28,884 nucleotides of DNA from a virus: positions 1-28,884 of the IMG/VR virus record IMGVR_UViG_3300009506_000145. One strand, 5' to 3'. The translations under genes were made by a program, and so were the position numbers. Shown piece by piece: positions 13,119-26,834 of the stretch (position 1 is the stretch's first letter; every line of letters starts with the position of its first letter). Under the pieces are notes generated by a model that was given only the letters and a program-made list of their open reading frames with translations, searched no databases and was not told the DNA's origin.

Positions 13119-13803
13119 TTAAAATTTAGTAGCTGAAGTGATGTAGATACCAAGAGTATCAACACGTTGAGGGCCAAAGCCCCAGCGAGCGGAAGTAACA
13201 AACTCATCACGTTTATAGTCTTTATTACGTTCCCCTTCAACACTAGGCATTTGACGCCATGCAGCCATAATAGGTTTAGTGTTGTCATCGAGTACGGACA
13301 TAAACACGTTAGCTACTGCATCAGTAACAGCAGTAGTGCCATCACTAAAGTCACCTTTATCCAGACGGTTAGAGGTGATGATATTCCAGCCATAGAAGTT
13401 GTACAGGAATTGGTGATCACGCTCGAAACCATTACTCAAGATAGTCTTAGCAAACTCACCAACATCGTTGGAGATACTAACTTTGCCATCCAATGTACCA
13501 CCACATACAGGATCAAGGATAGCTACACGGCCAGCATAAGGTACGTTAGCTTTATCAAAAGCTACCTTCATCTTAATCAGGTCAGCTAGGTTCAGTGTAT
13601 TTTCACTACCAACAGTAGCAACAGTAGAGGCAATACGGTGTGCAAAACCATTTACTTCGTTAGGGTCTGCATCAGTTTGGGAGGTGTTACATACTTCCAA
13701 GAACCGTGTCTCAAAGTTCTCTTGGATAGCACGGGTAGCTTCAGCAGAGCGCTGAGCCATGAGGGATTCTACTTGAGCACCATCTTGACGTAGCTTATCT
13801 GTA
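13119..13803 (-). CDS. Major capsid protein, exon 2
   Basis: This is the 3' part of the major capsid gene, about 228 residues from TDKLRQDGAQVESLMAQRSA to ITSATKF. It contains capsid-like helices (EATRAIQENFETRFLEVCN), an NVPYAGRVAILDP segment and a C-terminal GFGPQRVDTLGIY strand. Read alone, the frame appears to begin at an ATG at 13814, but those first four codons are intron sequence. Joined to exon 1 at 14710/13803 it gives ...DAWYV-TDKLRQ... without frame change and a 316-residue protein with HK97-type features. The preferred codons indicate high expression. Confidence 0.85.
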
Positions 13804-14709
13804 CATTTATACATTTCAGTATATCAGACTATAACATCCCCGTAGGGCTTTTGGATTTAGTCGTTGCGGGTAACTTCAATTCTTTTAATTGCAAGTGAAT
13901 ATCACTATTCCCTTCATAACTAGCTCCATTTCTTCTGAAATGCTTACCAGTATTCAAACAATCAAGAATTAGGTCTGCTTGTTCCTGCTTAATTTTAAGA
14001 TGTTTCTTAAAGAAGCCTAAAACCTGCTTACCTTTATTTACGCTTAAAGATAGATTCCATTTACATACATCACCTTGTTTAGTTATATAACCACCAAAAG
14101 CTTTCTTCATTAGTAGAAGTCCTGCCTCTTGTGTGTAATGGCTAACAACAGCTAGTTTGAATTCTATATTTCCATCTTTTTTCCTAAAGGAGGAGTATAG
14201 ACATCCATCACCATCTATGTATCCAGCCATCCATTGCCTTGATGGGTAGTTCTTTTCTGGTGATTTCTCTTTTCTAGCATCTTGTATTTGACATCTAACC
14301 TTCTTAATGTCATCAACTGTTGTACCTTTCAGTGACAATAGTAAATCTACTACTTGTCTTTTTATAACAAGGTGTCTCTTAATAATATTCATAAACATTT
14401 CAGCTTTGGTGCCATGCAGAGAGATGTATGAACACCCTTTACCTTCTTTAACCTCAACAGAATACTCTCTCGTGAGCTCCTCAAACACCTCAGTGTGTTT
14501 CTGGTAAAGTGTTGCTTTAATGTTTATGTAATAAGAACCATTCTCTCTTTTTATTGGCCATATATCGAAACTGCCATCAGCATCGAATAGACCTGCGTAA
14601 TATTTGACATTTTTCATTAGACTACTGTCCTGTATATCCGTCTGTTTTCCCTCGTGTTAGCGTTAGCCTCCACGTTATTTACCAAAGTTTAACGTACGCT
14701 ACTTAGTTA
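13804..14709 (-). mobile_element. Group I intron in the major capsid gene
   Basis: This 906-nt intron splits the capsid gene after codon 88/89. Exon 1 ends GTACGT (14715-14710) and pairs with the intron sequence GCGTAC (14699-14694), giving a 6-bp P1 with the required U.G at the 5' splice site. The intron ends with G at 13804. P7-like segments are ACAGGACAGTAG near 14622-14633 and TTATAGTCTGAT at 13823-13834, close to the phage td-type core. An endonuclease ORF fills most of it. Splicing restores a continuous capsid frame. P3, P4 and P6 were not fully folded. Confidence 0.85.
13829..14617 (-). CDS. LAGLIDADG homing endonuclease encoded in the intron
   Basis: The product is 262 aa with two LAGLIDADG motifs, YAGLFDADGSF (residues 7-17; catalytic acid D14) and MAGYIDGDGCL (130-140; D137). 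It is thus a monomeric double-motif enzyme that would cut intronless capsid alleles and spread the intron. The stop codon lies inside the predicted P7 3' strand (TTATAGTCTG), so translation to the end would compete with core folding. The start at 14617 has only a weak upstream site, as often seen for intron ORFs. Codon use is more AT-rich than in the capsid exons, consistent with separate origin. It could also act as a maturase; nothing here decides that. Confidence 0.9.
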   Translation of the reverse strand: MKNVKYYAGLFDADGSFDIWPIKRENGSYYINIKATLYQKHTEVFEELTREYSVEVKEGKGCSYISLHGTKAEMFMNIIKRHLVIKRQVVDLLLSLKGTTVDDIKKVRCQIQDARKEKSPEKNYPSRQWMAGYIDGDGCLYSSFRKKDGNIEFKLAVVSHYTQEAGLLLMKKAFGGYITKQGDVCKWNLSLSVNKGKQVLGFFKKHLKIKQEQADLILDCLNTGKHFRRNGASYEGNSDIHLQLKELKLPATTKSKSPTGML

Positions 14710-14975
14710 ACGTACCAAGCATCACCTACATAGTCAGTGATACTAAGAGTTACCTCACCAGTATCAATTGGGTTGTAAGTGAATGGGGTATCTTCAGATA
14801 GCTCTTGAAGTGTGGCAGCACCAATAGTTTTGATGTGAAGTGTTTCGCCAGATCCGAAATCAGATACGTTTCGATAGAATGTTTCTGGCAAGAGGCCGTC
14901 ATGCAGGTTAGTGAGGATGAATGAGCTATATTGCTCTGCCTCAATAAACGCACGAGTATTAGAAGTTAATTGCAT
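14710..14975 (-). CDS. Major capsid protein, exon 1
   Basis: This is the N-terminal part of the capsid protein, 88 complete codons plus two bases, from MQLTSNTRAFIEAEQYSSFI to SITDYVGDAWYV. Without splicing the frame adds one Asn and stops at 14703. The AAGGA site 8 bases upstream and the 10-base gap to the scaffold gene fit a normal late gene. The ITDYVGDAWYV|TDKLRQDG joint reads like an uninterrupted capsid sequence, which supports the splice sites. The mature product is the HK97-fold shell subunit. Confidence 0.85.
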
Positions 14976-15723: not shown

Positions 15724-15753
15724 TACTTATTCCTTATTAATTTATTTAAGTTA

Positions 15754-15786
15754 GTTAGGAGTGGTAGTAATTCTAACACCCCTAAC
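15754..15786 (-). other. Hairpin in late transcript before the scaffold gene
   Basis: GTTAGGGGTG and CACTCCTAAC, in minus-strand RNA, form a 10-bp stem with one G.U and a 13-nt loop. In the plus-strand sense that pair becomes an A-C mismatch, so the structure favours late mRNA. No U-run follows, so it is not a terminator. It could be a processing or stability site for scaffold and capsid message. Confidence 0.5.
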
Positions 15787-15808
15787 TTAATACTAATATA
15801 TATACTAA

Positions 15809-15851
15809 TAGTATATACCAAGATTTTTTATGTTATTCTACAAAATATTTT
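15809..15851 (+). repeat. 43-nt dispersed repeat, late-module copy
   Basis: TAGTATATAC, 18 bases, then TCTACAAAATATTTT. The same arrangement with the same spacing occurs at 27213-27255; 35 of 43 positions agree without gaps. Both ends contain palindromes (GTATATAC and AAAATATTTT). This copy sits between the small gene after portal and the scaffold gene, in the largest gap of the packaging and head gene block. Confidence 0.65.
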
Positions 15852-16086
15852 ACAATAAATTTAAAACCTCTTTTAATGCCCTCATATACCCTACACTATC
15901 TGCTTGTTCATAAGCCCAACTAGCATTCTCATAATTACCCTTACTTAGTGTATTAGAGAGGTTAGAGTTGTATTTATTGTTAATAATTTCTGTAAGACGT
16001 TCTCTTAATCTTAACGCGTTAGTGAAATGTTGCTCGAACTCTTCTGCGTCATCTTCACTCATTCCAGCAGTCCAAGTAGTTTTCAT
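15850..16086 (-). CDS. Small acidic helical protein between portal and scaffold
   Basis: The product is 78 aa, largely helical (DDAEEFEQHFTNALRLRERL) and ends in WAYEQADSVGYMRALKEVLNLL. The start overlaps the portal stop as ATGA, so translation is coupled. Small proteins of this kind occur at this position in other podoviruses, but I cannot name a function. A role in head assembly is a guess from position. Its stop overlaps the 43-nt repeat. Confidence 0.65.
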   Translation of the reverse strand: MKTTWTAGMSEDDAEEFEQHFTNALRLRERLTEIINNKYNSNLSNTLSKGNYENASWAYEQADSVGYMRALKEVLNLL

Positions 16087-17816
16087 GGAACCATCTCCTG
16101 TGATTGCTCTACCTGAATGTCCTCTTGTACTTGTGACACTAATCTTGCTGTCTCAGCGTCCTCAAACACACCTACATTGGGTTTAAATAGTTGATACCTA
16201 TCTAACCCTAGGCTATCACTAACAAGGTCTGAAAGAGCCTTTTTACTCATATGTGGCATGAGTGTTTGTCCCATAGGACTACTCATCAACATATTGAGGT
16301 TTTGCATTAATTGTGCCTGTGCTGCAAAATGTCTTGCACCAATTGGTCTGATTTTACCAAGGGCAGTAATATCCTCTTTAGTTACACTGATGAAGTTCTG
16401 TACACCATAGTCATCATCCATTACACCTACAACATCAATTGTGTCCATATTACGTCTAGCTACTTCTAGCATAGCATTAAGGCAATTCTCCAACAATTCA
16501 GTTTCAAAGCTAGTAATCTTCTCTTGGAAGATGCGACCAGCTTTATTCTGCAATTGCTGCACCTCAAAGGCCGTTTTCTCACCGGGAGTCCTAATACCCA
16601 TAGCTTCACTAGGGGCACCTGCATATTGCTCCATACGAGCTTCTATGGCGCTAATTTCGTTAGCTGCTGAGATAACACCATTCATACCAGATGTTAGTTC
16701 TCTTACACCACCATTCTCATCTGTGTGGATAAGCTCACCCGGACCCCATCTGAACTGTTCTACCTCACCTCTAACCTCTAGTGGTGGATGAACAACTAAA
16801 TCCATTGCGTCAGCTTTAAGGTTTTCTAGGTGATCGATACGATATTGCAATCCAACTAAGTTATCTAATGGCCCCATAGACCACAAGTTATCTGGACGTG
16901 ACCTCCATCCAACATGATATATTGGCGCTCTACCTAACCAAGAAGGTATGTCACCATCTCTTACAACAGTAGACCTATCCATAACAGTGATAATCTTGTT
17001 ACGCTCTACGGTATCCCCTACCCTAATATCACCAAAGAACTCAAGAATCTCTACATAGTCGCTCATGTAGTATTCTTTAAGGTTACCAAAACCATCTGCA
17101 GTAAATGCTTCTGCTTTGTCATTATCTTCAATTGAATAGCTACCTAACTTACGGATAATCTCTTTACGTTTCTTAAGGGCATCTTTATAGAAATATGAAT
17201 CAGGTTCATCCTCAGACATATTCATAATTTCACCAATTGTCTTAATACTTCGTATAATCTTGAAACTATCTTCAAATGTGTCAGCCAAGGGGTTAAACAC
17301 AACATCTAATGGAGAAATACGGATAACCTTAGGGCCACTATAGCCTTGTACAGTTTCTCCATTATCAAGCGTTTTAGACGTACTCTCGTAGCTAACAGTT
17401 GCGAAGGCATTACCGTAGTCAATGTAGTCATATAACAACTTACTCATAATACGCCTAAAACCACCTTCTCTAGTTTTATTAAGCATATAACCTTCAATAG
17501 CATTAGCCTTATCTACATCAGCACTGTCAAGTGTATACGCTTGCCATTTAAGCCAATTGTCATTAGGAAATAATGAAGATAAGTAATTGCTGTGTAGATT
17601 ATCTCTAATCTGACATAGTTTAGGTAATGTAGTTTTATTCTTCCAAGGAAGGCTACTATTAGATGTAGTTGTAGTGTCAGTAGCAAAGATATAGTTTCTA
17701 AGCTCCTTCCACTCTCCAACCTTAGTTTTCTTCTGTTGATAAAATTTATCCCACAGGTAAACAATCTGTGCGGCCTTATCTTCAACGTTAAGTAATTCTG
17801 CCACTTTAATTGACAT
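16083..17816 (-). CDS. Portal protein
   Basis: The product is 577 aa, in the size range of podovirus portals. Features are an N-terminal helix with AAQIVYLWDKFYQQKKTKVGEW, then LPKLCQIRDNLHSNYLSSLF, a beta-rich middle with PKVIRISPLDVVFNPLAD, and a helical C-terminal part (GEKTAFEVQQLQNKAGRIFQ) typical of the crown and stem. The dodecameric ring at one vertex passes DNA during packaging. The start overlaps the terminase stop as TAATG, with GGAGG 9-10 bases upstream. Order terS-terL-portal-scaffold-capsid supports the call. Confidence 0.9.
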   Translation of the reverse strand: MSIKVAELLNVEDKAAQIVYLWDKFYQQKKTKVGEWKELRNYIFATDTTTTSNSSLPWKNKTTLPKLCQIRDNLHSNYLSSLFPNDNWLKWQAYTLDSADVDKANAIEGYMLNKTREGGFRRIMSKLLYDYIDYGNAFATVSYESTSKTLDNGETVQGYSGPKVIRISPLDVVFNPLADTFEDSFKIIRSIKTIGEIMNMSEDEPDSYFYKDALKKRKEIIRKLGSYSIEDNDKAEAFTADGFGNLKEYYMSDYVEILEFFGDIRVGDTVERNKIITVMDRSTVVRDGDIPSWLGRAPIYHVGWRSRPDNLWSMGPLDNLVGLQYRIDHLENLKADAMDLVVHPPLEVRGEVEQFRWGPGELIHTDENGGVRELTSGMNGVISAANEISAIEARMEQYAGAPSEAMGIRTPGEKTAFEVQQLQNKAGRIFQEKITSFETELLENCLNAMLEVARRNMDTIDVVGVMDDDYGVQNFISVTKEDITALGKIRPIGARHFAAQAQLMQNLNMLMSSPMGQTLMPHMSKKALSDLVSDSLGLDRYQLFKPNVGVFEDAETARLVSQVQEDIQVEQSQEMVP

Positions 17817-19381
17817 TAATTAATACCTCCAAACCTTCCATTGAAACTGATTACATTGTCCATGAAAGAATCTTTAATTGAATTTGTTTTAGGTCGTATA
17901 GCAATCTCTACCGCGCAAGCTAGGGCATCTTTTACATCGTCATGTGGTGGCCTAGCCAACACTAACTCTTCTTCCAATACTGGAGTAAAACCACCTTTAA
18001 AATGCCATACAGACATATTCTCATACCTATGTTCAAGTGCAGCAGCTATACGCTCTTCCTTAGTACCCTCATGTCTTGATGGCCTATGCTCATCAATACT
18101 TAACACCATACCATCACGCCTAATATGGTCTTTAAGGTCATTAACGATAATTTGTTGTGCTACAGTAACTTCCGCCCTAAGTTTCTTAAATTCCCATTTA
18201 GAATGTAATTGAGACACCCTATTAAAATACTCAGAGATTTGGTCTGTCTTAAATCTATCAATATCTAGAATATAAATAAATCCATCACAATCAACACCAA
18301 TTACAACAATAGCTGTACTGTCTGCCTTTTTACTTAATGAGAATGCAAAGTCAATAGCTGCGTATACATTTAATCTTTTATCTTTGAAATACCATTTTCC
18401 AGATTTTTGCTCTATAAACTTTCTATCATAATATTGGAACTTACCTCTATCAACACGATTAGAGGTTGGGTCGTTAGGGTCATTGTAATATTGTGCGTAG
18501 AATTGTGTTGTATCTTCATACTCAGCTTTAATCCTAGCTAAGATGTTTCTATTAAAGCCAAATGATTTACCATCTGCCCTAGTAGTTCTATCCCATAGGA
18601 ATGTACCATCTTCCTCTACTACATGTTCTTTAATATCCCAAATAGGAATTTCCTTTTCTATATCACCATCATCAGTATAGACGTAAGCCTTCTGTCGCTT
18701 CCATACATCGTAAATATCGGCTGGATGATACCTAGTACCACAAGCTTTAGTAAAACCCTCTGCTACGCGAATAGAGGCCATCTGTGACATAGCATCAGTA
18801 ACCTTCTTCCTTCCATCCTCTGTATAAGCGTTATCGGGTACAACAACGTCATCTGCTACAATTACATCAGCGTGCCACCCTGTCGTGTTAGTTGTAAGGC
18901 CAGCAGTAGAGATAGTCCAATCACGAATACCTTCTTGTTTACGTTTTGGGTGGTCTACAGCCATCTTACTAACTGACCACTTCTCCCTCTTACCTTCTTC
19001 TGGATGAATCATGTCAGGAAAATATCGTGTATAAACTTTAGATGTAAGTATATTTTTAATATCATATAGTTGCTTTTCTGCCAACTCAGCAGTAGCCGAG
19101 ATATACAAAATTGTAGTTTCTGGATATTTTGTAATATACCAAGCACACCATACAGCAACGCAATGACTCTTCATATGCGCACGAGGTAGAAGTAGTAATT
19201 GGTTAGTATTATTATTACTTTGTAACCATTTAAATACATCTTTATGAACTTCTCCATACACCCTGTGTGGGTTTACCAATTGTGCGAAATAATGTAAATC
19301 ATCTAAAGCCAGCTTTCTAATTTCCTTGGCAGATTCAGGCATATTATCTAATTTAAATTTAGCCTGTTCTTCCCAACTCAT
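17816..19381 (-). CDS. terL: Terminase large subunit (packaging ATPase and nuclease)
   Basis: The product is 521 aa. The ATPase part has an atypical Walker A, LLPRAHMKSH (residues 65-74), a Walker B, ADVIVADD (171-178), and LYISATAELAEKQ in the expected region. The RNase H-like nuclease has AAIDFAFS (D344), a second acidic strand YILDIDRF (near 370), and HDDVKDALA (D481, D482, D485). It cuts concatemeric DNA and drives it through the portal. TAATG coupling to the small subunit is visible. It is complete with all expected motifs. Confidence 0.95.
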   Translation of the reverse strand: MSWEEQAKFKLDNMPESAKEIRKLALDDLHYFAQLVNPHRVYGEVHKDVFKWLQSNNNTNQLLLLPRAHMKSHCVAVWCAWYITKYPETTILYISATAELAEKQLYDIKNILTSKVYTRYFPDMIHPEEGKREKWSVSKMAVDHPKRKQEGIRDWTISTAGLTTNTTGWHADVIVADDVVVPDNAYTEDGRKKVTDAMSQMASIRVAEGFTKACGTRYHPADIYDVWKRQKAYVYTDDGDIEKEIPIWDIKEHVVEEDGTFLWDRTTRADGKSFGFNRNILARIKAEYEDTTQFYAQYYNDPNDPTSNRVDRGKFQYYDRKFIEQKSGKWYFKDKRLNVYAAIDFAFSLSKKADSTAIVVIGVDCDGFIYILDIDRFKTDQISEYFNRVSQLHSKWEFKKLRAEVTVAQQIIVNDLKDHIRRDGMVLSIDEHRPSRHEGTKEERIAAALEHRYENMSVWHFKGGFTPVLEEELVLARPPHDDVKDALACAVEIAIRPKTNSIKDSFMDNVISFNGRFGGIN

Positions 19382-19890
19382 TATCTATAATTCTCCATAC
19401 GAGCAATATCAGCGCCATACTCATCTTCGATGGCAGCCCTAATCTTAAGTTCTTTCTCTACATCCTGTTTAGTTGGACGTCCAGCTCCACGCTTGCACCA
19501 TTCCTTTCCTGTAATATATTTTACAGCAACCATGTTAGGCTTATTTTCATCAAAGGCCATACCTAATGCACAACCTACCATATCACTTACCATCTTAACT
19601 TCTAACTCATCTCTCCACTTATCAACCATATTCTTAAAGAGTTTATTGTTAGTTATACGTTTCCAATGGTCCCACCCACATAAATACGTAATAGCGAATT
19701 GATACTCTGTTGGGTCACAAGCTTCCAGATAAAGTCTTTTTAATGATGGGTATACTTTACCTTCATACTCATAGTCCTCATCCTTCATTGTGTAAACAGC
19801 AGTATCTTTATCATAGTTCACTTCAAGAAACAATGATTGTGTCATAGGACGCCCCATAACATCCTTTAATCTACTTTTATCTATCTTCAT
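19381..19890 (-). CDS. terS: Terminase small subunit
   Basis: The product is 169 aa. A central helical region (FAITYLCGWDHWKRI) is followed by a C-terminal KRGAGRPTKQDVEKELKIRA segment that is common in podovirus small terminases. It lies directly before terL, the usual order. The small subunit forms a ring that recognises packaging sites and loads DNA onto the large subunit. The ATG at 19890 has AGGT about 7 bases upstream. No clear helix-turn-helix was placed by eye. Confidence 0.85.
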   Translation of the reverse strand: MKIDKSRLKDVMGRPMTQSLFLEVNYDKDTAVYTMKDEDYEYEGKVYPSLKRLYLEACDPTEYQFAITYLCGWDHWKRITNNKLFKNMVDKWRDELEVKMVSDMVGCALGMAFDENKPNMVAVKYITGKEWCKRGAGRPTKQDVEKELKIRAAIEDEYGADIARMENYR

Positions 19891-19898
19891 ATAGTTAC

Positions 19899-20021
19899 CT
19901 ATTTCTTTTTATATCCACTAGCGTAAATAGCTTTTCCTTGCTTCTCAGCTTGTTTTCTTGTTGGGTAGATTTTACCACTCTTACTCCACCTTCAACCACC
20001 TTTAACCTTATTTACTGGCAT
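19899..20021 (-). pseudogene. Small conserved phage ORF interrupted by in-frame UGA (readthrough or pseudogene)
   Basis: A perfect GGAGGTGA site 2-4 bases before the ATG at 20021 opens MPVNKVKGG, then UGA at 19994-19992. The same frame continues with RWSKSGKIYPTRKQAEKQGK and AIYASGYKKK to a TAG at 19901-19899. The downstream part has the pattern (SGK.YPTR.QAE.Q..AIYASG) of tiny proteins that I have seen in terminase regions of other phages, where an aromatic residue would stand at the UGA. No alternative start exists after the UGA. Either the gene is dead, or UGA (followed by A, a leaky context) is read as Trp, or it is a sequencing error. Confidence 0.6.
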
Positions 20022-20103
20022 ATCACCTCCAAATAGGTGAAGGCCCAGTAATGGGCCAACACGCAATTATCCTTATAGGTTATTGTTTGAGATTAGGCGC
20101 TAA

Positions 20104-22263
20104 TCAACTCAATCGTGTTAGCGTTACATTAGAGCTATATGTATTAACCCCGCTATCGAGTGTAACTGTCAGTTGACCTCCATCAGTGCTGAACGCATAA
20201 GTAATTACTGGTTCATTTCCTGATGTTGTAGCTGCAACAGGGAGCTCGATAGCGGTTGCGTCACCGCCTTCACGTCTTGCTACAATTATAGTTCGTTGTA
20301 TATATGTATAACCTGCTGAGACATTTCTGGTTACAACATCAAGTTGGTATGAAGCTCTTGAGTATGTGGATATTGCGTTGACGGTAAAGACAGTGTCATC
20401 TGTGCCAGTGTATGAACCTGTGTTAATTCTATCGTAGACTTCGCCGTAATTCTTATACCCTTTATTTCCAACAGCTTCGTTAATAGTGAGAGAACCAGAC
20501 CCAGCTTTCAATACAAGACCTGCCACATCACAACCAATCATTCTATCCACGGTAAGCGACCCGCCACCAGTTGTATAGACGACATTAGCCGTAGATCCTG
20601 TTAATTCAGATGAACTGATGCACCCTATTGTTGATGGGCTATTATCACAAGCAATTACAGAAGCAGGTGACAGGTAGTTCCCTCCGTTATCATCAGCGCC
20701 AATTGCAGTGTCGATGCCAATTAGTTGGAAGTTAGGATTATCACCTCCGGTCATTTCAATATGAGCATCTTGCGCTGGCAACAATTCAGCTAGACGACCG
20801 TTTCGCCTGAATTTTGTAGCGTTTACAATCAGACCAGCGTCACCTCCAACAAGTAGACCACCATACCCGTTACGGTCAATAACTCCACCTATAATCTGGT
20901 TGCTTGCAGCATTGCCATACGCGTTAACACCACGCTCGCCATTCCACTCAATTTTATTACTAGTGTAAGTTGAATCATTGGCTCCAGCCGTAATACGTAT
21001 CCCATCATATGTATTGGCATTTATCGTACAAAAAGATACTTTTGAGTCCACCAAACCAGTTATACCCTGGGCATTACTAGCAAAGTGACATAATAATGAC
21101 TCAACGCCGCCAAGTGTACTAAGAGAACCAAGGCCATTACTAAATCCATAGATACTGGTCATAAACAAATACGGAGCATAACAGGTGGAGTCAGGAAGAA
21201 AGTTAACTGACTTGCCATTTCCAAACCAAGATGTATGGAAAAATCGACAATACTTCCCGAATTTGATAAATGTCGCTTCGGACGTATCGTAGGCAATACC
21301 ATTAAGTCCTGTGAACGATGCAAGGTCTGAACAAGTATATTTCCATTTTCTATAGCCAGTAATCGTTGTCTTATCCTGAGTTGTAAGACCGCCAAGTAAA
21401 TAGTAAGTAATACAGGGATCGACCACAATATCTGTAGATAAATTAAAAGCACACTGAAAGGCAAGTTTATCTGTAGATGCCGTAGCTGACCCACTACCAA
21501 CAGCACCAAACCATCCGGTGTGAACTTTTGGAGAGGCTGTACCATCCCAGCCTTCAATCTGACGCACCCAACACCCAACAGTCACCGCCACGCTCGCAGA
21601 CGCGATATAAATACCCTGCTGAGTATCGACAGCTACCTCTGTTGTAAAATCACCCAAAGTCCACACAAACTGGCCAGAGCGACCACCTAGTGATAGAGTG
21701 GCAACCTGCCCCTCTTTAATAGGAGTTATAAGTTGTAGTTGTGCTATTGAATGTACTACACCATCTTCAAATACAGAGATATTGTATATCTCATGCGTAC
21801 CACCACCACTATCTGTCAATGTTACAACACCATTAACTTCAGCACTTATAGATGTAACAGTAGCACTTACACCTTCTAGAGATTTGTATGTAATTTCATC
21901 TGATAAGTCATAAAAATAATGTTGGCCAGTGAATGTACCAGCATTAAGTAGTGATACATCATCAACAGTTGTATTATTACTTATCGCAACACTTTGGATA
22001 TAAACTTCTTCAGAATCTACAAATTCTGTGGATGGACTTATATACCTCCCATTTAATTTTAACCTACGAGCTGATACTGTATCTGCGTTAAGGATGTCCT
22101 CCCCATTCATATCCAAATCGTTTCCCATTGTATTGGGTTCACCACTTGGATTACCTCTATACAATACACTCCCATTTAATGCTTCAGCAATAAGATCAAA
22201 ATTATCATTCATTACATTAAGATCGTTATTATTACTGATAGTTGAGAATTCTATTTTACTCAT
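20104..22263 (-). CDS. Tail spike with beta-helix, candidate polysaccharide depolymerase
   Basis: The product is 719 aa. Residues 1-75 are a tail-binding anchor (SVLYRGNPSGEPNTMGNDLDMNG) shared with the neighbouring fibre. HTGWFGAVGSGSATASTDKL (249-268) marks the usual entry to a right-handed beta-helix of tailspike enzymes. About 350-600 shows short repeated turns (NTYDGIRITAGANDSTYTSN, GGVIDRNGYGGLLVGGDAGL) as in pectate-lyase-like folds. The last 80 residues form a beta-rich trimerisation-type tip. It probably binds and cleaves host capsule or O-antigen; catalytic residues cannot be named by eye. GAGG lies 6 bases before the ATG. Confidence 0.8.
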   Translation of the reverse strand: MSKIEFSTISNNNDLNVMNDNFDLIAEALNGSVLYRGNPSGEPNTMGNDLDMNGEDILNADTVSARRLKLNGRYISPSTEFVDSEEVYIQSVAISNNTTVDDVSLLNAGTFTGQHYFYDLSDEITYKSLEGVSATVTSISAEVNGVVTLTDSGGGTHEIYNISVFEDGVVHSIAQLQLITPIKEGQVATLSLGGRSGQFVWTLGDFTTEVAVDTQQGIYIASASVAVTVGCWVRQIEGWDGTASPKVHTGWFGAVGSGSATASTDKLAFQCAFNLSTDIVVDPCITYYLLGGLTTQDKTTITGYRKWKYTCSDLASFTGLNGIAYDTSEATFIKFGKYCRFFHTSWFGNGKSVNFLPDSTCYAPYLFMTSIYGFSNGLGSLSTLGGVESLLCHFASNAQGITGLVDSKVSFCTINANTYDGIRITAGANDSTYTSNKIEWNGERGVNAYGNAASNQIIGGVIDRNGYGGLLVGGDAGLIVNATKFRRNGRLAELLPAQDAHIEMTGGDNPNFQLIGIDTAIGADDNGGNYLSPASVIACDNSPSTIGCISSSELTGSTANVVYTTGGGSLTVDRMIGCDVAGLVLKAGSGSLTINEAVGNKGYKNYGEVYDRINTGSYTGTDDTVFTVNAISTYSRASYQLDVVTRNVSAGYTYIQRTIIVARREGGDATAIELPVAATTSGNEPVITYAFSTDGGQLTVTLDSGVNTYSSNVTLTRLS

Positions 22264-22280
22264 TCTACCCTCTTATTAAA

Positions 22281-23957
22281 TTATACAGCTTCCCAATAAG
22301 CTATTCCATCACTACCACATTTTAATACAGATTCTACAGATGGCGCAGTAGATGGGTATACAACCTCACCTACAGTTACATCATCATCAAATGTTGTAGG
22401 CATAAGTATGTTAAATGGTGTTGTACTACTACTACCTGATGACAGTGTTAAGGAATCAACAATATAGTTATATGTAAGCTGTACATTATATGTTGTAACG
22501 TCAGACACATCTTTAATAAGTTGTAAGGATGCCCCAGAAGTACCACCAGTTAATTGTACACTCCTTACATAACTATCACCTATTAATCCAGACTCAGAAT
22601 CCCCATCAATAACTATTCTGTTGGCATTTACTGTTAAATCATAAGTAAGTGGATCTATAGTTTGTGTGAATAACGCACCTGTAGCGTAAGGACGGTATAT
22701 ATAAACATAATCCCCAGATGATGATGATATTGTATTATCTAATACATCTAAGTTCCCACCTAATTGTGGTGTAAGGTCTTCCACAAGGTTTGATAGTTTT
22801 CCAGAAAGTAGGTTATCTACTTCAGTCTCAGTATAGTAGAAATCATCATAGTCACCATCTTCTGGTACTACATCACCAGTACGTCCATTAAAACTAGATA
22901 CACCAATATCTACTACCGATTGGCTAATTGTAATAGCTCTACTTTCTGTACTACCTTCCATATAAAATGTAAGGGTTGGGTTAAGTCCAGTAGTTGTCTT
23001 ATACGCGTAAATACGGGTGATAATCACATCACCAGCAACACCAGACGCTCCTCCAACAATATCCTTACTCAGTACAATGTTAGATCTAGTAGTACCAACA
23101 CTAACTAAATTAGATGTACCTAGTGATGTTTCAGTATCATCTGTGTGTAATACCGCAGCAGTGACATATACTGTAACATTGTCAGTAGAGGATACCATAT
23201 CTAATGTATAACGTGTGTTAGTATCGCCAACAGTAATATCAGATGTAAGTGCTGCCTCCCTAGCCCATTGCCCAACTAATACCGGAGCACCTGCCACAGT
23301 ACAAGTAACAACTGCTGTAGATTCAGCTTCAGTAGATCTACTAAATGTAACAGTGTCATATCCTGACTTTAACGCTGAGTCATTATCTGTAAACCATACA
23401 GTTGTTGAGGAGGGCAGTTCAGAGGGGAGTAGGTATTGTGGGTGGGGGTCTGATGCAGCTTCATGTTCCGCAATACTGTCAGGGTTTAGTGCAAGTTCAG
23501 TACCATCTGACGCATATACAATATCATCCCCCGGTAATCCTGATGGTCCTGTACCACTATTACCTGTAACAAAATACACTTCACTATGAACACCTACATC
23601 ACTAGAAGTATAGTCTCTATGATATGTTATAGTTTTAATACCGGAGTTATCTATATAGTTATAAGCTAACATATCACTAAAGCTATCAACACTAACTTCT
23701 GTAATATTAGCTACTACTAAGTCGTTAGGTATTACCTCATCTCCTTGAATGCGTAATGTTGTTACATTTATTTCATTAACATTCAATAAATCATTACTAT
23801 TCAAATCAATATCATTATTGGAATGGTTAGGTTCTCCAATAGGATTATCCCTATACATTACCTTAGAGTTAAGTTCCTCCTCCAATAACTGAAAATTATT
23901 ATTTATTCCACTTAAGTCATAACCTGACCTAATATCTTTTAATGTTATCTTTGACAT
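22281..23957 (-). CDS. Tail fibre with shared anchor domain
   Basis: The product is 558 aa. The first 75 residues match the spike anchor (SKVMYRDNPIGEPNHSNNDIDLN). A short collagen-like piece (TGPSGLPGDD, near 136-145), EHEAASDPHPQYLLP (164-178) and VSSFNGRTGDVVPEDGDYDD (about 360) are widespread tail-fibre motifs. The end (VLKCGSDGIAYWEAV) is typical of a fibre tip. AGGAGA lies 4 bases before the ATG. It is the first gene of the late module on this strand, 17 bases before the spike gene. It probably works as a second receptor-binding protein or as an adaptor that carries the spike. Confidence 0.8.
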   Translation of the reverse strand: MSKITLKDIRSGYDLSGINNNFQLLEEELNSKVMYRDNPIGEPNHSNNDIDLNSNDLLNVNEINVTTLRIQGDEVIPNDLVVANITEVSVDSFSDMLAYNYIDNSGIKTITYHRDYTSSDVGVHSEVYFVTGNSGTGPSGLPGDDIVYASDGTELALNPDSIAEHEAASDPHPQYLLPSELPSSTTVWFTDNDSALKSGYDTVTFSRSTEAESTAVVTCTVAGAPVLVGQWAREAALTSDITVGDTNTRYTLDMVSSTDNVTVYVTAAVLHTDDTETSLGTSNLVSVGTTRSNIVLSKDIVGGASGVAGDVIITRIYAYKTTTGLNPTLTFYMEGSTESRAITISQSVVDIGVSSFNGRTGDVVPEDGDYDDFYYTETEVDNLLSGKLSNLVEDLTPQLGGNLDVLDNTISSSSGDYVYIYRPYATGALFTQTIDPLTYDLTVNANRIVIDGDSESGLIGDSYVRSVQLTGGTSGASLQLIKDVSDVTTYNVQLTYNYIVDSLTLSSGSSSTTPFNILMPTTFDDDVTVGEVVYPSTAPSVESVLKCGSDGIAYWEAV

Positions 23958-24034
23958 ATGTCTCCTAGTTTATATAAACGTTCACTTCGTTCACGAGAAA
24001 TTATTTACTATCTACCTCTTTCCCTGTTGGCATA

Positions 24035-24050
24035 ATTTTTGTTAGAAAAT
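24035..24050 (+). repeat. 16-nt near-palindromic element, copy 1
   Basis: ATTTTTGTTAGAAAAT. It agrees with copies at 26187-26202 and 28840-28855 at 14 of 16 positions, with both variable positions purines. ATTTT and AAAAT are inverted arms around a six-base centre TRTTRG. Confidence 0.6.
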
Positions 24051-24080
24051 ATTTAGGTGTAATGTAACATATCACAGCTA

Positions 24081-24103
24081 CCCCCTAACCCCCTTCCTCC
24101 CCC
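24081..24103 (-). other. G-rich tract in divergent region
   Basis: On the minus strand the tract reads G5-A-GG-AA-G5-TTA-G5. Three runs of five G plus one GG could form a two-layer G-quadruplex. It stands between the first two palindromes. Confidence 0.5.
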
Positions 24104-24304
24104 TAACACTTTGAATGAGAATCATTTGTATTTAACATTCCCTTCGGTCATGAGAATACTAATGAGAATGGTTGATATTTACATTCACTGCGTTCATGAG
24201 ACTACTTTCACATTCACTATACACATAACCCTTTGTTTTGATTGGGGTTTATATTGTTTTTCTACGCCTTTGGCGAGAATTTCAAACTTTTTCTATTGCC
24301 CCTA

Positions 24305-24333
24305 TTGACACCCCATGCAAACCGTGTTTTAAT
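24305..24333 (+). promoter_or_regulatory. Sigma70-like early promoter
   Basis: TTGACA at 24305-24310, 17 bases, then TTTAAT at 24328-24333 (TAATAT with a 19-base spacer is an alternative). It would start a transcript about 40 bases before the first small early gene. Confidence 0.6.
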
Positions 24334-24381
24334 ATATCACATATTCGGACACACAATCACTTTTATGTATAGGGGCGTTGA

Positions 24382-24462
24382 ATGTGGGATAGAATAGAGC
24401 TGTTTGGGGGGAGACCCAAGCGTAAAAACAAGCGTAAAAGGTTAACTGCAAGGGGCAAGTGA
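24382..24462 (+). CDS. 26-residue basic peptide, first early ORF
   Basis: The ORF encodes MWDRIELFGGRPKRKNKRKR and then LTARGK. AGGGG lies 6 bases before the ATG, and the stop is followed at once by the next gene (TGATATG), so the two are translationally linked. The C-terminal two thirds is strongly basic, which would suit binding to RNA, DNA or an acidic host protein. It lies just after a sigma70-like promoter. I do not recognise it. It could also be a leader peptide. Confidence 0.5.
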   Translation: MWDRIELFGGRPKRKNKRKRLTARGK

Positions 24463-24463
24463 T

Positions 24464-24646
24464 ATGACAAGCGAACAAGTTAAATGGGCAAAGCTACATG
24501 ACTGGTTTATCTATTGCGTTGAAATGGGTATTGACAAGTTTGAGGTAGTATGTAATGATGGCTATGGAATTCCATCAGGTGAATGGGTGGAAAGGGTTAT
24601 TACCTTCTCTGACTTCAACGCGATGAAAGAGTGGGCAGGGTATTGA
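24464..24646 (+). CDS. Small early protein, unknown
   Basis: The product is 60 aa, acidic and rich in aromatic residues (KLHDWFIYCVEMGIDKFEVVCNDGYG). AAGGGG lies 8 bases before the ATG. It is the first early gene of normal composition and follows the basic peptide by one base. A position directly behind the early promoter is typical of phage proteins that alter host functions, but no family is recognised. Its stop codon lies inside the -35 box of the next promoter. Confidence 0.65.
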   Translation: MTSEQVKWAKLHDWFIYCVEMGIDKFEVVCNDGYGIPSGEWVERVITFSDFNAMKEWAGY

Positions 24647-26675: not shown

Positions 26676-26752
<77 letters not shown>

Positions 26753-26757
26753 TATTA

Positions 26758-26834
26758 GGCCCTTTAGCTTAATTGGTTAAAGCAACTAGCTCATAACTAG
26801 GAGATTGCAGGTTCAAGTCCTGTCGGGGTCACCA
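26758..26834 (+). tRNA. tRNA with CAU anticodon, probably Ile2 (lysidine type)
   Basis: The tRNA is 77 nt with encoded CCA; anticodon CAT at 26792-26794. The acceptor GGCCC.../...GGGGTC with discriminator A resembles bacterial tRNA-Ile2 more than elongator tRNA-Met. A normal first pair (G1-C72) rules out initiator tRNA. If lysidine is added at C34, it reads AUA. The seventh acceptor pair is T-C and A27 faces G43, two mismatches. Confidence 0.85.

Follow-up and report, generated by a model that had tools for sequence, protein, structure and literature searches.

To our knowledge, few cases of functional extruded phage DNA hairpins have been described, those of coliphage N4 above all. REP elements are noncoding imperfect palindromes with internal mismatches and a GTAG/GGAG flank. 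The early promoters of N4 are template-strand hairpins with a GNA loop (PMC4496689), and N4 reads them with a virion RNA polymerase (vRNAP) of its own; GNA and GNNA are also known as extra-stable loops of DNA mini-hairpins (PMC4686876; PMC6479982). The stretch of DNA analysed here (the window) is a virus record of 28,884 bases, probably a fragment, with three 17-nt palindromes in the divergent gap between its late and early genes. Like the N4 promoters, these have a C-G-closed GNA triloop, lie on the early-template strand and stand in the control region upstream of the early genes; unlike N4, in which the stems are perfect, GC-rich and 5-7 bp long (AAGAAGC-GGA-GCTTCTT), they have five Watson-Crick pairs broken by tandem G.A, with AC or CC as inner pairs, and the uninterrupted 5-7 bp stem with a GC-rich central heptamer is absent. 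They share with the extra-stable d(GCGAAGC)-class mini-hairpins the C-GNA-G loops and the sheared G.A geometry expected from sequence, but add a tandem GA step and occur in natural phage control DNA. All three have a GNA loop closed by C-G, and a stem with two or more G-C pairs adjoining the loop, part of the definition in PMC4686876, is found in hairpin 2 only. The control region of the Zobellviridae phage ICP2 has the same genome plan as the window, with sigma-70 (TTGACA) promoters annotated in the divergent gap, but is without tandem-GA hairpins, of which none was found in either ICP2 or T5S1.

Judging from its terminase, portal and internal virion protein, which place it near the Zobellviridae, the window is a piece of a marine ICP2/CW02-type podovirus. 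Its terminase shares 73% identity with that of KZY1, a metagenomic phage, and 67% with that of ICP2, and its internal virion protein is nearest to that of CW02; the relatives used below are approximately 60-70% identical to the window in the portal protein, and megablast of positions 16000-24500 against phages returned no matches. With gene borders drawn by a simple open-frame rule rather than by a trained gene finder, the late genes are read leftward from 23957, the early genes rightward from approximately 24464. A sigma-70-like promoter directed toward the early genes lies 115-318 bp to the right of the hairpins, and a scan for intrinsic terminators (a GC stem followed by a T run) found none. 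Two tRNA genes, Arg-TCT and Met-CAT, are located in the early region (26676-26834, plus strand), and were the sole matches to Rfam 15 at gathering score in the window (at 26676-26831), with none at the hairpins. The major capsid gene is split into separate frames (13119-13814, 13829-14617 and 14703-14975, minus strand), with 80% identity to KZY1 in the first 89 residues and 60% in the last 226; an HNH endonuclease frame stands between two capsid parts, an arrangement like that of an intron or homing insertion, and no intron match to the split gene was found in Rfam.

The three 17-nt palindromes (Table 1) are real and far from chance. They were confirmed to the base and are as the sequence-only reading had described them, with a TC/TC mismatch (GA/GA on the minus strand) kept in all three, minus-strand loops of C-GAA-G, C-GAA-G and C-GCA-G, and outer pairs (CG/CG, CA/TG) and inner pairs (AC/GT, CC/GG on the minus strand) that change together. 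The common pattern of the minus strand, which is the late-sense strand, is NNT-GA-NN-GNA-NN-GA-ANN with covarying stems. The architecture with all five pairs occurs three times in the window, compared to a mean of 0.005 and a maximum of 1 in 600 dinucleotide shuffles, and NNN-GA-NN-GNA-NN-GA-NNN with all five pairs did not occur in 3000 shuffles of the gap. Standard DNA energy rules, which give sheared G.A steps no credit, assign 0 to -2 kcal/mol to the sites, not above shuffles, and RNA folding of the sites is likewise not above shuffles. Hairpin 1 is centred 30 bp upstream of the start codon of the tail-fibre-like gene (23957) and its end is separated by approximately 12 nt from the AGGAG of this first late gene, which lies downstream of it.

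Table 1. Control-region features of the window, and stems of hairpins in related phages (identified by contig)
Feature	Position	Strand	Basis or content
Hairpin 1, CGTTCACTTCGTTCACG; minus strand CGT-GA-AC-GAA-GT-GA-ACG	23979-23995	-	sequence, shuffle scan
Hairpin 2, CATTCCCTTCGGTCATG; minus strand CAT-GA-CC-GAA-GG-GA-ATG	24136-24152	-	sequence, shuffle scan
Hairpin 3, CATTCACTGCGTTCATG; minus strand CAT-GA-AC-GCA-GT-GA-ATG	24182-24198	-	sequence, shuffle scan
Fourth, unlike hairpin, TTCT-a-CGCC-TTT-GGCG-AGAA (plus-strand letters)	24260-24279		sequence, folding
Two diverged ~47-bp tandem units, AATGAGAAT...TATTTA-hairpin-GAGA	24114-24207	+	holds hairpins 2 and 3
Conserved block, GGGGGTTAGGGG-N10-TGCATT-N10-ATTTTCTA..AAATT (TGCATT-like)	24034-24093	-	relatives
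First late gene, tail-fibre-like, 558 aa	22281-23957	-	open frame
Sigma-70-like promoter TTGACA-17-TTTAAT, toward early genes	24305-24333	+	by eye; below the rule of the scan
Hairpin sequence CATGAACGCAGTGAATG			counterpart of the AG/ANG reversed controls
L027 extended stem, GCATTTC-TGAATGTAATGAA-GAAATGC (GCATT..AATGC)			
L070 extended stem, GAATA-TGAATGTAATGAA-TATTC			
L050 extended stem, CTTAATC[a]G-TGAGTGTAACGAA-CGATTAAG			
L062 extended stem, CTTAAG[t]G-TGAGTGAAACGAA-CCTTAAG			

A fourth palindrome had been grouped with these three, but is of another type: its loop is TTT/AAA, it has no TC/TC mismatch, no GNA loop and no G.A pairs, and it is the sole one of the four that is stable by standard folding. 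The trinucleotide AGA had been described as always following the palindromes; it does follow each of the three 17-mers, but is not specific to hairpins, and the wider repeat GAGAA is present also at 24115 and 24162 without a hairpin. Hairpins 2 and 3 belong to the two units of a diverged tandem repeat (24114-24160 and 24161-24207), so their independence is incomplete. Within the same 47-bp period as the hairpins, AATGAGAATCATT (24114-24126) and AATGAGAATGGTT (24161-24173) are Fur-box-like.

Paired changes are few among three copies, and the strong covariation is that of the relatives. In 80 portal-anchored contigs the same architecture is found with other stems, mostly in noncoding gaps. Such hairpins are located in the divergent region of L052, L059 and L040 and in the gap between the portal and scaffold genes of L027, L050, L056, L062, L066, L070 and L078, where in several relatives they have the sense orientation; since the position shifts between relatives, the element is not required at any single location. 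The stem continues past the 17-mer, in a part of the sequence that was not used for finding it, in L027, L070, L066 and L012; it also does so in L050, L059 and L062, where a single base bulges out on the 5' side. The wider class of GNA/GNNA hairpins is represented also in the control regions of KZY1, CW02, L043, L052 and L059. That of CW02, a relative in culture on Salinivibrio costicola, is a plain GNNA hairpin, GTGAC-GCAA-GTCAC, located 68 bp upstream of the first late gene. Use of the tail-fibre N-terminus as an anchor led mostly to unrelated tail genes, with the exception of L462 (the same contig as L059), which has the conserved G-rich block and a hairpin. In the portal-scaffold gaps of L050, L056, L062, L063 and L078, tandem-GA hairpins with the one-base 5' bulge adjoin runs of tRNA genes; the portal-scaffold gap of the window contains another long hairpin (15724-15849).

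In an alignment of 12 sites, 95% of the cells are paired and double changes number 20, with a score of 0.88 versus 0.25, a covariation count that is inflated because the relatives were picked partly by pairing; the letters T, GA, G.A, GA and A are invariant in these sites and the stem letters vary. An unbiased test counts every TGANNGNANNGAA core, pairing not being a criterion: both inner pairs are present in 9 of 11 noncoding cores versus 8 of 44 coding cores (p = 1.5e-4), and all nine of the paired noncoding cores are on the late-sense strand. In a survey of loops that covered 61.5 kb of noncoding sequence from these phages, GNA accounts for 18 of 40 C-G-closed triloops versus 42 of 272 in coding DNA (p = 5e-5) and GNNA for 12 of 37 C-G-closed tetraloops versus 28 of 288. 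Where a noncoding GNA hairpin has two mismatches, the most frequent combination is GA/GA (7 of 27, the next having 3). Plain GNA hairpins have a weak strand bias (24 late versus 11, counted by hand from the list). In viral contigs, where noncoding means outside reading frames of at least 60 aa, noncoding sites make up 34 of 92 distinct cases for the paired core GTGAACGNAGTGAAC, 1 of 77 for the unpaired GTGAACGNAGTGAAG, and 2 of 96 for a palindrome of reversed polarity, which keeps all Watson-Crick pairs and changes GA to AG and GNA to ANG, all among the first 120 matches listed per scan, which makes this a comparison of location, not of abundance. Because the reversed control is rarely noncoding, pairing is not sufficient; it also makes a difference which polarity the loop and the G.A step have, a sign that a strand really folds. 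From these counts of pairing, strand, location and polarity, selection for a folded single strand with a GNA loop and putatively sheared G.A pairs is well supported; the proposals of the sequence-only reading that paired changes reflect selection for structure and that the sites are GNA loops with tandem G.A are both supported. A general enrichment of the core in bacteria was considered and rejected, the core being no commoner than the reversed control in 470 genomes (274 gammaproteobacterial and 196 clostridial). The exact motif of the window has two matches in viral contigs, both coding, and therefore is no spreading sequence; a literature search for the core letters gave no match.

With a probability of roughly 0.5, the palindromes are single-strand DNA hairpin elements of the early/late control region that can be extruded and that are not promoters of a phage polymerase. 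The observed non-randomness, paired changes, constant GA/GA and GNA letters, noncoding location and late-sense strand are those of an element in which the late-sense strand would form a mini-hairpin that has a GNA loop and, within its stem, a sheared tandem G.A step. The fold would act as DNA, extruded by negative supercoiling or formed when replication exposes the strand; the divergent gap, which is expected to gather negative supercoils from two outgoing transcription units, would be a natural site of extrusion, and, next to the promoters for host RNA polymerase and the conserved G-rich block, the extruded hairpin could serve for binding or insulation. Elements of this kind are scattered through the noncoding gaps of the phage family. 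Against this reading stand the standard DNA energies at the level of shuffles, the lack of tandem-GA hairpins in ICP2 and T5S1, the shifting position, and the core being no commoner than its reversed control in bacteria. The hairpins stand on both sides of the conserved block, which also occurs in the divergent control region of other Zobellviridae, in L040 (4617), L059 (5660), L020 (297), L062 (70), L066 (221) and KZY1 L090 (2219, -), and could function as a late promoter, as an origin or as the site of a regulator. The G runs of the block could form a quadruplex.

The same letters could be read in RNA, as hairpins in the 5' leader of the late mRNA that act on the translation of the tail-fibre gene or, in relatives, of the scaffold gene, or on the stability or processing of the message. 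This is a serious rival, because the strand bias of the paired tandem-GA cores and the preponderance of G.T over A.C among stem mismatches (5 to 0) fit RNA as well as DNA; the nearness of hairpin 1 to the AGGAG of the first late gene and the sense orientation of portal-scaffold hairpins in several relatives are in its favour. RNA prefers GNRA loops. Since 8 of the 12 GNNA loops closed by C-G are GNTA, not of this RNA type, these loops were counted for DNA over RNA, and the folding of the sites as RNA at the level of shuffles, the lack of a match to Rfam families and the virus-wide core, which has no clear sense bias (13 sense versus 9 antisense), also weigh against a leader function, so that an RNA element is possible but rather doubtful. 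A dimeric protein that binds the dyads and GAGAA repeats as double-stranded DNA would explain why three dyads, recurrent GAGAA boxes and a tandem unit of 47 bp are assembled in a control region, but a dimer site should keep the letters of its half-sites, and here there are paired changes around a constant, asymmetric GA/GA and GNA centre, and noncoding DNA has no enrichment of the reversed palindrome, in which the pairs are the same; duplex operators are accordingly an unlikely account. Still less probable is a dispersed element of the REP kind, mobile or repetitive, that has no function in the phage, which the window hairpins resemble as noncoding imperfect palindromes with internal mismatches, and which would suit the repetition of the core in a few bacteria (Blautia 10:0 and Pseudidiomarina 8:0 over the control): the stems differ by site, so that copies have not spread as one sequence, there is no conserved sequence beyond the core, the flanks in the window are TTCT/GTCT rather than GTAG/GGAG, and no REP transposase was seen. 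In these Blautia (G043) and Pseudidiomarina (G042) genomes, the 10 and 8 occurrences of GTGAACGNAGTGAAC, with none of the reversed control, have the appearance of dispersed chromosomal hairpins of the same design.

The sequence-only reading had offered hairpin promoters of the N4 type as one function, noting itself that the stems differ from those of N4, as they do in being broken by GA/GA and in their inner pairs, and that no N4-like polymerase is in the window. The orientation is indeed that of N4, each hairpin lying on the template strand of the rightward early transcription, and the hairpin scan applied to N4 recovered three N4 hairpins (at 90, 557 and 4546 of the early region), all on the minus strand. 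A homology search with the N4 vRNAP domain had no match in the window, itself a fragment, and 18 related records, N4 as positive control being found; T7-type PF00940 had no match in the window and 20 related records, and, because it had none in 14 control genomes, the search was extended to T7 and N4 as positive controls, both of which were detected. A sigma factor is annotated in CW02 and KZY1, and the Zobellviridae are said to have no RNA polymerase of their own (PMC9960094). The same hairpins occur within late operons of relatives, where an N4-type promoter would read antisense. Given the lack of a detected polymerase, the sigma-factor and promoter annotations and the antisense late hairpins, promoters read by a virion RNA polymerase are very improbable. 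The internal virion protein (1442 aa) was considered as a hidden polymerase and set aside, having no Pfam or PDB match and no relative in viral_contigs; it may be a highly diverged polymerase.

The locus thus presents a covarying set of hairpins with the loop class of N4 in a family in which no polymerase of its own was detected. Tentatively, a phage family that relies on the host polymerase might possess, in its control region and gene gaps, a structural code of DNA hairpins with sheared GA and a GNA loop (YGARYGNARYGAR with free covarying stems), the shape of which under supercoiling, rather than a dedicated polymerase, would mark the late-sense strand; related motifs would be in use in many viruses. 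If the hairpins are used as RNA, they would be an undescribed late-leader element; if they are used as DNA, hairpin function would be separated from the N4-type polymerase, and would have a sequence signature that can be searched for.
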